Source: an uncultured Draconibacterium sp.
GTDB taxonomy: Bacteria; Bacteroidota; Bacteroidia; Bacteroidales; Prolixibacteraceae
Assembly (NCBI RefSeq): GCF_913060805.1
Contig: NZ_CAJXTC010000015.1
Coordinates: 1 to 64,000 of the forward strand
Direction: 5' to 3'
DNA: 64,000 nt
How positions within the stretch are numbered: position 1 is the first letter of the stretch; every line of letters begins with the position of its first letter. Shown here piece after piece: positions 53,503 through 58,202 of the stretch. The notes below the pieces were generated by a model. The model saw nothing but the letters and a program-made list of their open reading frames with translations. It had not been told where the DNA came from and did no database searches. A program made the position numbers and the translations under genes.

Positions 53503-54741
53503 ATGAGCTTACTTTACAACCTTGGAATTTTGTTTTACGGATTTTTTATCCGTGTTGCAGCCTTGTTTAACGAGAAGGCAAAACTGTTTGTTGCCGGGCG
53601 TAAAAACTGGAAAAATAAGCTTAGTTCAGCAGTTGACAATAATGCCTCGTACATTTGGTTTCATTGTGCATCGTTGGGCGAATTCGAGCAAGGAAGGCCG
53701 GTATTAGAGGAAATTAAAAAGCAATATCCGCAATACAAGATCGTACTCACTTTCTTTTCGCCATCGGGTTACGAAATCCGGAAAAATTATGAAGGCGCCG
53801 ATATTGTTGCCTATTTACCCATGGACACCAAAAAGAATGCGCAGGAGTTTATCCACCTGGTTAGCCCCGAGAAAGTATTCTTTGTGAAATACGAATTCTG
53901 GTACAACTACATTACAGAACTCAAACGTCAGCAAATTCCGCTTTATATTATCTCTGCCATTTTCCGTGAGAACCAGCAGTTTTTCAAATCAACTCCCTGG
54001 GGAAAGTGGTACCGAAAAATGCTTCACAGCTTCGAGCATATTTTTATCCAGAACAAAACTTCTGCCCAACTACTTGAACAGGCCGGCATCAAACATTACA
54101 CGATTTCGGGCGATACACGTTTCGATCGGGTAGCCGAAATTGCCCGCGGTGCAAAAAAGTTCAGCATTGTGGAAAAGTTCAGGGGTAATAATGTAACCCT
54201 TATTGCCGGAAGCACCTGGAAACCCGATGAGGAGCTGCTTGCAGCGTTTATTAACAACAGCAGCGACGTGAAGTTTATAATCGCGCCACACGAGGTTGCA
54301 CCGGCAAATATCAACAGAATTCAGGAATTGTTGAAAAAACCGGCTATTCGTTTTAGTAAAGCCGATATTTCCGACATCGACAGCTACGATGTGTTAATAA
54401 TTGATTCAATCGGAATATTATCGTCGCTGTACCAATACGGAAACATAGCGTACATAGGCGGTGGCTTTGGTGTTGGCATCCATAATATTCTGGAAGCGGC
54501 CACTTTTAAATTGCCTGTTTTGTTCGGACCGAATTATTTAAAATTTAAAGAAGCGGTTGATCTGGTAGATGAAAAAGGCGCCTTCCCTATCCAAAATTTT
54601 AACGAGCTGAAAGCTACACTCAACAAGCTCATCAACGATAAAACAAGCCTGCAAAATGCCTCCGAAATTTGCAAAAAATATATAGAAAAAAACGTGGGCT
54701 CAACAACACTTATCATAAATAAAGTTTTTAACAAAAAGTGA
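53503..54741 (+). CDS. waaA: 3-deoxy-D-manno-octulosonate (Kdo) transferase
   Basis: 412 residues, inner-membrane-associated GT30 enzyme that adds Kdo to lipid A. It starts with a short membrane segment (LGILFYGFFIRVAALF). WFHCASLGEFEQGRPVLEEIK (about 52-70), LTFFSPSGYEIRKNY, GDTRFDRVAEIA near 205 and the nucleotide-sugar site AYIGGGFGVGIHNILEAATFKLPVLFGP near 320-345 are all WaaA signatures. The length is normal. It follows the lycopene cyclase gene by 11 bp. It is core lipopolysaccharide metabolism, unlike its carotenoid partner. Confidence 0.93.
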   Translation: MSLLYNLGILFYGFFIRVAALFNEKAKLFVAGRKNWKNKLSSAVDNNASYIWFHCASLGEFEQGRPVLEEIKKQYPQYKIVLTFFSPSGYEIRKNYEGADIVAYLPMDTKKNAQEFIHLVSPEKVFFVKYEFWYNYITELKRQQIPLYIISAIFRENQQFFKSTPWGKWYRKMLHSFEHIFIQNKTSAQLLEQAGIKHYTISGDTRFDRVAEIARGAKKFSIVEKFRGNNVTLIAGSTWKPDEELLAAFINNSSDVKFIIAPHEVAPANINRIQELLKKPAIRFSKADISDIDSYDVLIIDSIGILSSLYQYGNIAYIGGGFGVGIHNILEAATFKLPVLFGPNYLKFKEAVDLVDEKGAFPIQNFNELKATLNKLINDKTSLQNASEICKKYIEKNVGSTTLIINKVFNKK

Positions 54742-55057
54742 AAATTTGCACGCTTTTTGTTAGCAAATTATTCTTCGAAAAATTGAATTTTTACAAGTAA
54801 TATTCCGTTAACAAAAATCTTCATCAGCTAATAATAATTTTCAGTTTTGGTAAACTTTTTTTAACTATCAAATATATAACCCACTATCCCTCTGCTACAT
54901 AACAAATCAAAGTTGATAACTTTTAATTAATTAGCCCTCAAAAAAATTCCAAATATTTGATTTCTATTCTATCTTGCATTACACAATTTGTTGTGATTGA
55001 CATCTAAGAAAATCGAATATACATTCTTATAACTTTTAATACACTTACAGGAAAAAA
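54742..55057. other. 316-bp AT-rich intergenic region before the ribonucleotide reductase gene
   Basis: No gene is seen. ACACAATTTGTTGTGA at 54981-54996 is a short near-palindrome of the size of an NrdR box, about 60 bp before the start codon; single and imperfect, so uncertain. I looked for a cobalamin riboswitch, expected for a B12-dependent reductase, and recognised none. A weak hairpin (AATTTGC/GCAAATT, 54743-54769) follows waaA. Confidence 0.35.
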
Positions 55058-57610
55058 ATGGCAGTAAACGAAGTATCTGTAAAAGCCCCGGCGGGCAAAA
55101 AAATTTACTCTCAGGAAGAAGCAGTAAATGCCTCGCTAGAGTACTTCAAAGGAGACGATTTGGCAGCAAGAGTATGGGTAAACAAATACGCCCTTAAAGA
55201 TTCGTTCGGAAATATTTTCGAAAGAACACCTGACGACATGCACAAACGCCTTGCAAAAGAAATCGCACGCATTGAAGAACGCTACCCAAATCCATTAACC
55301 GAAGAAGAAATCTACAGCGTCCTAAAAGATTTCAAACACATTGTTCCACAGGGAGGACCAATGACCGGTATTGGCAACGACTATCAAATCGCATCACTAT
55401 CCAACTGTTTTGTTGTTGGAAACGACGGTGACTCGGATTCGTATGGTGGAATTATGAAAATTGACCAGGAACAGGTGCAATTGATGAAACGCCGCGGAGG
55501 TGTGGGACACGACCTGTCTCATATCCGCCCAAAAGGTTCTCCGGTAAAGAACTCGGCATTAACATCAACCGGTATTGTTCCGTTTATGGAGCGCTATTCA
55601 AATTCAACACGCGAAGTTGCGCAAGACGGACGCCGCGGTGCATTGATGCTTTCAGTATCGATTAAACACCCCGACTCGGAAAGTTTTATCGATGCAAAAA
55701 TGGAACAAGGCAAAGTAACCGGAGCCAACGTATCGGTAAAAATCCAGGACGATTTTATGGAAGCTGTTGAATCGGGAACTCCTTACACGCAGCAATACCC
55801 GATCAACGGAAAAGCACAGTACACCAAAAATACCGACGCCGGTAAAATCTGGAAAAAGATTGTAAAAAATGCGTGGAAATCAGCCGAACCGGGAATTCTT
55901 TTCTGGGATACCATTATTAAAGAATCGGTGCCTGATTGTTATGCCGACCTGGGTTACCGCACGGTTTCTACCAACCCATGTGGTGAAATTCCGTTGTGTC
56001 CTTACGATAGCTGCCGCCTGTTAGCCATCAACCTGTACTCGTACGTAGAAAATCCATATACCAAAGACGCGAAGTTCAATTTCGAACTATTTAAAGAACA
56101 CATCCATTATGCACAGCGTATTATGGACGACATTATCGATCTTGAGCTGGAAAAAATTGATGCCATTTTAGAAAAAGTTGAGGAAGACCCTGAAGCTGAA
56201 GAAATTAAATTTACGGAAAGAAATCTTTGGGAAAGCATTCGCAGAAAAGCAAAAGAAGGCCGCCGTACCGGAATTGGTATTACTGCCGAAGGCGACATGC
56301 TGGCTGCATTAGGATTACGCTACGGTAGCGATAATGCAACTGATTTCTCGGAAGAAATTCATAAAACAATTGCCATTGAAGCTTACCGTTCGTCTGTACA
56401 CCTGGCAAAAGACCGTGGTGCATTTACCATTTACGATGCTGAGCGCGAAAAGAATAATCCGCTTATCAACCGTATTAAAGATGCCGATAATGGTCTTTAC
56501 GAAAAAATGGTAAAATACGGCCGTAGAAACATTGCGCTGTTAACCATTGCTCCAACAGGTACAACCAGCTTGATGACTCAAACAACATCAGGTATCGAAC
56601 CGGTTTTCCTTCCGGTGTACAAACGTCGCCGTAAAGTAAATCCGAACGACAAAGATGTTCGTGTTGATTTTATTGACGAAGTTGGTGATTCATGGGAAGA
56701 GTACACTGTTTTCCACCACCATTTTAAAACCTGGATGAAAGCGAATGGTTACGACACATCTGTTGAATATTCGCAGGAAGACCTGGACAAAATGGTAAAA
56801 GAGTCGCCTTATTACAAAGCTACATCAAACGATGTTGACTGGCTGAATAAAGTGCGTATGCAGGGAAGAATCCAGAAATGGGTAGACCACTCGATTTCGG
56901 TAACTATTAACCTGCCTGCCGATGTAAAAGAAGAGCTGGTTGGCGACTTGTATTTCGAAGCCTGGAAAAGCGGCTGTAAAGGTGTTACCGTTTATCGCGA
57001 CGGATCACGTTCGGGTGTGCTTATTTCGAACGACGATAACAAGAAAAAAACTGAAGACGGCGCATTCCCGCTGAAACGTCCTGAAAAACTGGAAGCCGAC
57101 GTTGTACGTTTCCAAAACAACAAGGAAAAGTGGATTGCATTTATCGGTTTAATGGATGGCAAACCTTACGAGATTTTCACCGGTTTGCACGACGATGAAG
57201 ACGGAATTTTGCTGCCTCGCTCGATAACCAAAGGTTATATCATTAAAAGCTGGGAAGGCGAAGATTCGCGCTACGATTTCCAATACGCAAACAAACGTGG
57301 TTACAAAACCACTATTGAAGGATTGTCGCACAAATTCAATCCGGTATTCTGGAACTACGCCAAGTTAATTTCGGGAACCTTGCGCCACGGTATGCCAATT
57401 CATAAAATTGTTGAACTGGTAACCAGTCTGCAACTGGATAACGAAACCATTAACTCGTGGAAAGCGGGTGTGGCACGTGCACTGAAGAAATACATTCCGG
57501 ACGGAACAATTGCCGATGATGCAAAATGTGGCGAATGTGGATCGGACGATGTAGTTTACCAGGAAGGCTGTTTAACCTGCCTATCTTGCGGATGCTCAAA
57601 ATGCGGATAA
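55058..57610 (+). CDS. nrdJ: Adenosylcobalamin-dependent (class II) ribonucleotide reductase
   Basis: 850 residues. It reduces ribonucleotides with coenzyme B12. The active-site cysteines and barrel motifs are present: SLSNCFVVG near 115, RRGGVGHDLSHIRPKGSPVKNS (about 150-170), TSTGIVPFMERYSN, the catalytic loop NPCGEIPLCPYDSCRL near residue 308, and IAPTGTTSLMTQTTSGIEPVF near 500. The C-terminus has a TSCPD-type tail and a cysteine-rich zinc/redox motif, CGECGSDDVVYQEGCLTC, then LSCGCSKCG. No nrdAB partner is needed or seen. It has its own terminator. Confidence 0.95.
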   Translation: MAVNEVSVKAPAGKKIYSQEEAVNASLEYFKGDDLAARVWVNKYALKDSFGNIFERTPDDMHKRLAKEIARIEERYPNPLTEEEIYSVLKDFKHIVPQGGPMTGIGNDYQIASLSNCFVVGNDGDSDSYGGIMKIDQEQVQLMKRRGGVGHDLSHIRPKGSPVKNSALTSTGIVPFMERYSNSTREVAQDGRRGALMLSVSIKHPDSESFIDAKMEQGKVTGANVSVKIQDDFMEAVESGTPYTQQYPINGKAQYTKNTDAGKIWKKIVKNAWKSAEPGILFWDTIIKESVPDCYADLGYRTVSTNPCGEIPLCPYDSCRLLAINLYSYVENPYTKDAKFNFELFKEHIHYAQRIMDDIIDLELEKIDAILEKVEEDPEAEEIKFTERNLWESIRRKAKEGRRTGIGITAEGDMLAALGLRYGSDNATDFSEEIHKTIAIEAYRSSVHLAKDRGAFTIYDAEREKNNPLINRIKDADNGLYEKMVKYGRRNIALLTIAPTGTTSLMTQTTSGIEPVFLPVYKRRRKVNPNDKDVRVDFIDEVGDSWEEYTVFHHHFKTWMKANGYDTSVEYSQEDLDKMVKESPYYKATSNDVDWLNKVRMQGRIQKWVDHSISVTINLPADVKEELVGDLYFEAWKSGCKGVTVYRDGSRSGVLISNDDNKKKTEDGAFPLKRPEKLEADVVRFQNNKEKWIAFIGLMDGKPYEIFTGLHDDEDGILLPRSITKGYIIKSWEGEDSRYDFQYANKRGYKTTIEGLSHKFNPVFWNYAKLISGTLRHGMPIHKIVELVTSLQLDNETINSWKAGVARALKKYIPDGTIADDAKCGECGSDDVVYQEGCLTCLSCGCSKCG

Positions 57611-57668: not shown

Positions 57669-58202
57669 TTAAAAATCTATTAAGTCTCTGATCTTTTCGT
57701 TGTAACTTTTACTGCAGGAAACTACTCTTTCCTTATCGCATTTCATAACCAGATCAAACCGGCCATTACCCAGCTTCTTAACCTCGTGAATAAGATTCTT
57801 ATTCACCACTGTTGATTTATGAATACGAATAAACTCCTCGGGAAATTTCTGTTCTAAATCAGCAAGCGTACTATCAACCACGTATTCTTTTCCGGTTACA
57901 TCTGTTAGAAAAACAAAGTTATTCCCTGCCGAAAGATCAACGATCTCATCAAAACGAATGAGCGTAATTTTATTCCCCTCTTTAACGGGATAATATTCTT
58001 TAATTTTCTCTTCCGTAATCAATGGCTCCGGCTGATTATTCGTATGGGTGTCCAGTTGTGTAGTTGTTTTAGGAGCTTTACTTTTTCTAATCAGATATCT
58101 TATCAGCAATACCACCGGCAAAACGATTAACAGGCCTGGGATTAGAATTAAGAGAATTATAATTTCCTGCGGACCGATAAATCCAAGTAAAATTGTGTTC
58201 AT
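57669..58202 (-). CDS. Membrane-anchored LytTR-domain protein
   Basis: 177 residues. One strongly hydrophobic segment (EIIILLILIPGLLIVLPVVLLIRYLI, about residues 13-38) is followed by a charged linker and a LytTR DNA-binding domain (about 75-177): KITLIRFDEIVDLSAGNNFVFL, LEQKFPEEFIRIHKSTVVNKNLI and KERVVSCSKSYNEKIRDL. There is no response-regulator receiver domain, so it is not a classical LytR/AlgR pair member; membrane-anchored stand-alone LytTR proteins are known in Bacteroidota. The upstream 225 bp gap to gcvH has no other gene. Its target genes are unknown. Confidence 0.88.
   Translation of the reverse strand: MNTILLGFIGPQEIIILLILIPGLLIVLPVVLLIRYLIRKSKAPKTTTQLDTHTNNQPEPLITEEKIKEYYPVKEGNKITLIRFDEIVDLSAGNNFVFLTDVTGKEYVVDSTLADLEQKFPEEFIRIHKSTVVNKNLIHEVKKLGNGRFDLVMKCDKERVVSCSKSYNEKIRDLIDF

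Follow-up and report, generated by a model that had tools for sequence, protein, structure and literature searches.

A putative ribonucleotide reductase operator of two boxes 65 bp apart upstream of nrdJ in an uncultured Draconibacterium and its relatives in the Bacteroidales

The DNA considered here (the window) is a 64,000-nucleotide (64-kb) stretch, positions 1–64,000 of contig NZ_CAJXTC010000015.1 of an uncultured Draconibacterium sp. (assembly GCF_913060805.1; Bacteroidales, Prolixibacteraceae), and the subject is the leader of its ribonucleotide reductase (RNR) gene, nrdJ. To judge from its sequence and that of its relatives, this leader probably carries an RNR-specific operator of a dedicated regulator that is independent of NrdR. 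The main features are as follows (half-site scores are from the matrix described below, whose training sites came from other families):

54845..54859, + strand: box 1 of the proposed operator, TTTTGGTAAACTTTT, conserved in the genus and family at a fixed distance from box 2; 16.5 bits, the best half-site of the leader
54910..54924, + strand: box 2 of the proposed operator, AAGTTGATAACTTTT, with the 13-mer AAGTTGATAACTT; 8.6 bits, the second-best half-site of the leader
54970..54976, + strand: -7-like element TATCTTG, with box 2 starting 60 bp upstream
55058..57610, + strand: nrdJ, adenosylcobalamin-dependent (class II) ribonucleotide reductase, an 850-amino-acid open reading frame (ORF) with a profile match

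The product of the 55058–57610 ORF matches TIGR02504 with 579.5 bits (cut-off 399.95) over residues 37–655 and positions 2–605 of the 606 in the profile, and its NrdJ barrel domain (PF02867) scores 313.8 bits; it is predicted to be NrdJ, a class II RNR, with the B12 dependence of its family. The source genome (5.48 Mb in 79 contigs, 99.53% complete) has a single RNR large-subunit gene, with one match each to the NrdJ query and to PF02867, and no match to NrdB (PF00268), NrdD (PF13597) or the ATP-cone (PF03477), NrdJ itself included; the ATP-cone profile was positive in 12 of 14 control genomes. nrdJ is thus the sole RNR found in this nearly complete genome. A first-pass annotation made from the letters of the window had stated that the only RNR here needs cobalamin, and the family match bears this out and the genome-wide search for other nrd genes, which turned up nrdJ alone, extends it. 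Other genomes of the genus, G005, G007 and G012 among them, give weak additional NrdJ matches in frames of about 800 amino acids that are probably class I NrdA, so RNR sets appear to vary within the genus.

The two boxes, both missed by the first-pass annotation, lie 65 bp apart, or about six helical turns. nrdJ was found in 36 of the 37 genus genomes, and the 30 best-scoring leaders from these all have the 13-mer AAGTTGATAACTT unchanged, with its first base exactly 60 bp before TATNTT[GC]. This downstream motif, TATCTTG here, we take to be the -7 promoter element on the basis of the Bacteroidota consensus. Three more genus leaders could be compared, and the 13-mer is present in two of them and differs in its last base in the third (G023). 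Overall it is present in 35 of the 37 genus genomes, although in G011 and G035 the copies lie away from nrdJ, whose leader is absent from both assemblies. In the source genome it occurs once without mismatch; with up to one mismatch allowed there are 13 sites, and the reversed pattern gives 23. When 84,980 species genomes were scanned for the 13-mer followed by TANNTTG at any of three gaps, 107 stretches were obtained, and among the 80 that were read nrdJ lies downstream in 39 of 42 at a gap of 47, in 6 of 20 at a gap of 46 and in none of 18 at a gap of 48.

The 13-mer was also considered as the mark of a wider regulon in the genus, and this was rejected: of 13 further perfect copies read from genus genomes ten lie in open frames, and the source genome has none. 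Three of those ten frames (L229, L233 and L234) have the look of spurious ones; their copies come from G022 and G035, where one and the same pair of genes flanks them. One copy is shared by G003 and G036, whose nrdJ leaders are nearly identical, upstream of a helix-turn-helix-like gene; G004 and G032 share another, within an ORF, and G019 and G028 a third, within a different ORF.

Leaders from other families of the order contain TTTTGGAAAACTTTT twice, 64–66 bp apart. When 392 order genomes were searched for the pattern GGRAAACWT, 45–65 bases, GGRAAACWT, 113 matches were obtained, with 22, 18 and 12 at spacings of 64, 65 and 66 bp, respectively; the other 18 spacings have between 0 and 6 matches each, except for 11 at spacing 54, some of them in repeat arrays. 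GGRAAACTT is repeated in tandem or in clusters at G058:C251:35737-35868 and in G310 (contigs C2, C8, C11 and C14). Fifty of the 52 matches at 64–66 were examined (the repeat-like ones on C11 and C14 of G310 were left out), and 37 of these precede an RNR gene, which is nrdJ in 29 cases and nrdD in eight (24 were identified by tblastn and 13 were already-known nrdJ leaders). No RNR gene was found in the 54 loci that cover 61 matches at other spacings, with flanks of about 1.5 kb there and of 2.5 kb for most of the 64–66 loci. The twin box thus has a strong preference for RNR genes, and three genomes (G067, G706 and G768) have it at both nrdJ and nrdD.

The genes upstream of the array differ. waaA is the usual neighbor in the source family, and elsewhere dnaA, nitroreductase-like, RimM-like and other genes are found (names assigned by eye); this variation between families indicates that the site goes with the RNR gene, and the idea that it is part of the upstream gene waaA was rejected on the same grounds. 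An apparent dnaA gene lies directly upstream of nrdJ at L393 and L403, where other genomes have the nitroreductase-like gene (again by eye). At five of the eight nrdD genes the array has the opposite orientation to the gene, and in these five the gene on its far side ends toward the array, so the array still belongs to nrdD.

A 15-bp matrix was built from the 74 half-sites of the 37 order sites that precede RNR genes, none of them from the GTDB family of the source, and was applied to 43 nrdJ leaders of that family (33 from the genus and 10 others) that had been selected for neither box. With spacings of 40–94 bp allowed, the best-scoring pair has a spacing of 65 in 38 of the 43 and of 64 in one more (39/43), and the reversed family leaders give no spacing peak. 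If 32 leaders from named genomes that were chosen for box 2 are included, 64–65 is the best spacing in 70 of 75, or in 66 of 71 without four near-duplicates. The pair at 54845 and 54910 scores 25.1 bits and is the top direct pair of the 64-kb window at spacings of 30–99; the only other pair above threshold has 20.2 bits and a spacing of 51. This leader is therefore a member of the twin-box class, that is, of leaders with TTTTGGAAAACTTTT-type boxes 64–66 bp apart upstream of an RNR gene.

With fixed thresholds and spacings of 62–68, 26 of 91 nrdJ leaders from other families of the order score (five genomes are counted twice among the 91), of which 13 come from the training set and the rest from 12 further genomes. 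Six of 30 nrdD leaders score, one of them from the training set, and none of four nrdA leaders does. The corresponding control numbers for nrdJ, nrdD and nrdA are 0, 0 and 0 for reversed sequences, 0, 1 and 0 at spacings of 44–50, and 2, 1 and 0 at spacings of 80–86. Three loci (L326, L330 and L335), where the opposite strand has a longer ORF, were oriented by hand, and nrdJ positions in the order are relative to the Pfam match. The nrdJ leaders of L271 and L280, from other families, have direct repeats of GTTRATAACT 20–21 bp apart in place of the twin box.

About midway between the boxes many relatives have a third element, TGATWATCA. Its place in this leader is:

54885..54893, + strand: expected place of the central TGATWATCA (TATCCCTCT), +36 from the GG of box 1; not recognizable here

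Of the 37 order sites, 27 have the element at the same offset with at least seven of its nine positions, where shuffled sequences would give about 4.4. Among twin-box leaders of the family type it is present at that level in 31 of 70 (about 5.7 expected), or in 30 of 66 once duplicates are removed; every one of these has the same offset, with ties in offset resolved toward the +36 place. It therefore does not seem to be a required feature.

Might the conserved blocks simply be general promoter furniture, such as A-tract bends and UP-like elements, and not the sites of a dedicated regulator? AT-rich boxes, constant in spacing and upstream of a promoter, are what one would see in that case. This reading is nevertheless improbable, since 37 of the 50 matches at 64–66 precede RNR genes and ten of the other 13 are inside ORFs, since box 2 is invariant in sequence throughout the genus where bends need no such invariance, and since the array is found in both orientations at nrdD.

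The presence of dnaA next to some of these leaders bears on a second alternative, that the boxes are DnaA sites which couple RNR transcription to replication. The DnaA box is TTATCCACA; TTATCAAC on the complementary strand of box 2 and TGTTGATAA near box 2 elsewhere are one or two changes away from it, and nrdJ directly follows dnaA (named by eye) in L393 and L403. On the other hand, TTTTGGAAAACTTTT itself is unlike a DnaA box, and a single perfect 13-mer in the source genome is apparently too few for a site of this type. In addition, TTATNCACA is absent from the dnaA regions read in three genomes (the origin may lie elsewhere), GTTGATAAC and GGWAAACTTT are also absent from those of L339 and L340, and no TTATCAAC, TGTTGATAA or GGRAAACTT is present in the dnaA leaders of L393 and L403 either, although L403 has two copies of TTATNNACA and L393 has one GATTATC. 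The DnaA reading is thus an unlikely one. The parallel would be the E. coli class Ia RNR genes, which are described as activated by DnaA, Fis and IciA (PMC4009431): in both cases (putatively in ours) protein sites lie upstream of an RNR promoter, but the boxes here have no DnaA-box sequence, and the dnaA regions that were read do not have the boxes.

A gene that converges with nrdJ suggests a third candidate for the binding protein:

57669..58202, - strand: gene for a LytTR-domain protein with a hydrophobic N-terminus, convergent with nrdJ

Its product has a LytTR DNA-binding domain, and AAAGTTGAT matches the LytTR half-site. The usual distance between LytTR repeats is about 21 bp, however, and that between the boxes is 65 bp; furthermore, a LytTR gene adjoins nrdJ in only 13 of the 29 congeneric loci with enough flanking sequence (one of the 13 is a weak partial match), whereas box 2 is present in all of them. 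That this neighbor is the regulator is accordingly quite unlikely. AlgR is a LytTR protein as well. It is reported to induce RNR genes in Pseudomonas (PMC10134789), and that system is similar in having an RNR regulator other than NrdR, with the LytTR gene as a neighbor of nrdJ in the present case; it differs in that this neighbor is inconsistent and the geometry is not the same. Neither the DnaA nor the LytTR reading is favored over a dedicated regulator acting at the twin box.

The first-pass annotation had pointed to another sequence in this leader, which it thought may be an NrdR box:

54981..54996, + strand: near-palindrome ACACAATTTGTTGTGA, where transcription probably starts; conservation is mostly in the left half (ACACA)

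Published descriptions that bear on it give the NrdR-box consensus as acaCwAtATaTwGtg and two boxes as typical (PMC4009431), with spacers of 14–17 or 24–27 bp (PMC12051234) and a location that is often at the promoter (PMC9110341). The sequence is indeed at 54981–54996, it has only three mismatches to the consensus in 16 positions, and it sits at the promoter; its significance as an NrdR box did not hold up. Three 16-mers that good occur in the 64 kb, and the core CACAAnnnnTTGTG is found five times in the window with at most one mismatch (3.28 expected), the leader copy being the sole exact one. The palindrome is a single copy, and there is no candidate for a second box: the next-best 16-mers of the leader have five mismatches (at 54793, 188 bp away) or six (including those at 54946 and 54948, 33–35 bp away). 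The core is exact in seven of 30 congeneric nrdJ leaders, its own included, and in sister leaders the palindrome is broken by a one-base insertion or by substitutions. As it starts 5 bp past the -7-like TATCTTG, its conserved left half is probably the region of the transcript start.

The search for the protein gave a similar answer. nrdR (TIGR00244), whose product joins a Zn-ribbon to an ATP-cone, has no match in the source genome; the same profile was positive in nine of 14 control genomes, and none of the 392 sampled Bacteroidota genomes has a match above the cut-off (124.65 bits). Twelve of the 392 have weak matches of 20–28 bits, ten of them within frames of 759–1142 amino acids, as would be expected for the ATP-cones of RNR subunits. 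The first-pass annotation had itself named the absence of nrdR from the genome as what would speak against its proposal, and by that standard the NrdR box is rejected, barring an nrdR gene that lies in an assembly gap here and was overlooked in the other genomes too. With neither nrdR nor an ATP-cone in the genome, no nrdR above cut-off in the phylum sample, no partner box and a core that is poorly kept among congeners, there is very little chance that NrdR binds ACACAATTTGTTGTGA and represses nrdJ.

The twin box nonetheless has features in common with NrdR and its paired boxes: RNR genes are the targets, the site is common to RNR classes within one genome, and the pairs are helically phased. 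It differs in that no nrdR gene was found, in that the box sequence is unrelated to the consensus above, and in that the two boxes are 64–66 bp apart, in place of spacers of 14–17 or 24–27 bp, and lie upstream of the presumed promoter and do not overlap it.

The first-pass annotation had also seen no cobalamin riboswitch in the leader, and in this it was correct. An Rfam scan of the whole window found no family at the gathering score, and a permissive scan of 54700–55200 up to E = 10 gave five low-scoring families, the cobalamin riboswitch not among them. There is no match to RF00174 or any other Rfam family in 20 congeneric nrdJ loci, which together with the scans rules out an overlooked riboswitch, and no cobalamin riboswitch in the ten nrdJ loci of other families that were scanned. 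The source genome has two cobalamin riboswitches elsewhere, and both look, from genes named by eye, as if they precede B12-uptake genes (a BtuF/BtuC-like operon and a BtuB-like receptor). Across the Bacteroidales, a coding-strand cobalamin riboswitch lies before eight of 22 nrdD loci (L318 and L391 are one gene). Among the first 12 of these loci it is upstream by measured position in L309, L310, L319 and L321, and in L335 it is on the + strand about 400 bp ahead of the NrdD match; three of the further ten have it (L389, L390 and L407). In these last three the riboswitch lies between the twin box and the gene, an arrangement with two layers of control. One of four nrdA loci also has a riboswitch upstream (L241), and the copy at L239 is on the opposite strand. 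The riboswitches of the order thus precede some B12-independent RNR genes and no scanned nrdJ locus, so the lack of one at nrdJ is not odd. In Streptomyces a B12 riboswitch is reported to control the class I nrdABS genes (PMC4991794), and the choice of RNR is likewise tied to B12 at some nrdD genes and one nrdA gene of the Bacteroidales; there the RNA element is in the leader of the B12-independent enzyme, and none is present at the scanned nrdJ loci.

How might the twin box work? We infer from its arrangement that a protein binds it, and what is said of the identity of that protein, of the sign of control and of its signal has the same basis. The operator would be a multi-part DNA site made up of two TTTTGGAAAACTTTT-type boxes 65 bp apart upstream of the promoter, with TGATWATCA midway in many relatives. 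The finding of the same arrangement before nrdJ and nrdD in other Bacteroidales families makes a single RNR-dedicated regulator most likely, and this regulator, or an oligomer of it that bridges the helically phased sites, would bind the operator and do in these bacteria what NrdR does elsewhere. The spacing of six turns and the element halfway suggest one oligomeric protein on phased sites along one face of the helix. Neither box overlaps the promoter element; both are upstream of it, and the center of box 2 is some 65 bp ahead of the presumed start. Because of this position, activation through contact with RNA polymerase is our first guess, one that we hold by a narrow balance, and repression by bridging or looping comes second, as a possible but less probable mode.

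Several observations weigh against an operator of this kind. The 13-mer recurs at a few places other than nrdJ between related genomes, and box 2 is diverged in this GTDB family (8.6 bits by the matrix from other families). The twin box is common in the order without being universal there, and 13 of the 50 matches at 64–66 are away from RNR genes, ten inside ORFs and three elsewhere. The reversed control pattern also matches many genomes, in one of them 24 times, so that single matches mean little and the evidence is in the spacing peak and the gene context; the difference in RNR association between spacings of 64–66 and others (Fisher P = 1.7e-17) comes from a test that ignores kinship. The central element was first spotted by eye in the very order sites in which it was then scored at 27 of 37, and the best version in the present leader has five of nine positions and is 4 bp off the expected place. 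The inverted arrays at five of the eight nrdD genes fit contact with polymerase less well. Finally, no regulator gene was seen consistently adjacent to the sites (neighbors judged by eye), and no binding protein was identified.

NrdR has been termed "universal" (PMC12051234) and is said to be present in "most bacteria" (PMC9110341) or in all known eubacteria except Rickettsia, Helicobacter and Desulfovibrio (PMC4009431), yet this sample of a phylum has none above the cut-off, and a putative replacement operator can now be specified base by base. A broader reading, which we put forward tentatively and would rate at a little below an even chance, is that the Bacteroidota, for which the nrdR search was negative, have another RNR master regulator, which acts on an operator in three helically phased parts (two boxes with a palindrome between them, about 32 bp for each step). 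The operator would be common to RNR genes of classes II and III, and the regulator would set the supply of deoxynucleoside triphosphates in the whole order or phylum. No published account of a twin-box operator was among the matches listed in literature searches that included the box letters, whose coverage leaves out most subscription papers. The twin box is a new, putative operator for the control of RNR transcription and a first step toward its regulator. Its logic appears tidy: nrdJ and nrdD share the twin box, and some genomes add a B12 riboswitch on the B12-independent enzyme. Control of the supply of DNA precursors in the Bacteroidota, a major phylum of gut and marine bacteria, thus becomes directly testable, and the operator may serve as bait for the protein that would bind it.

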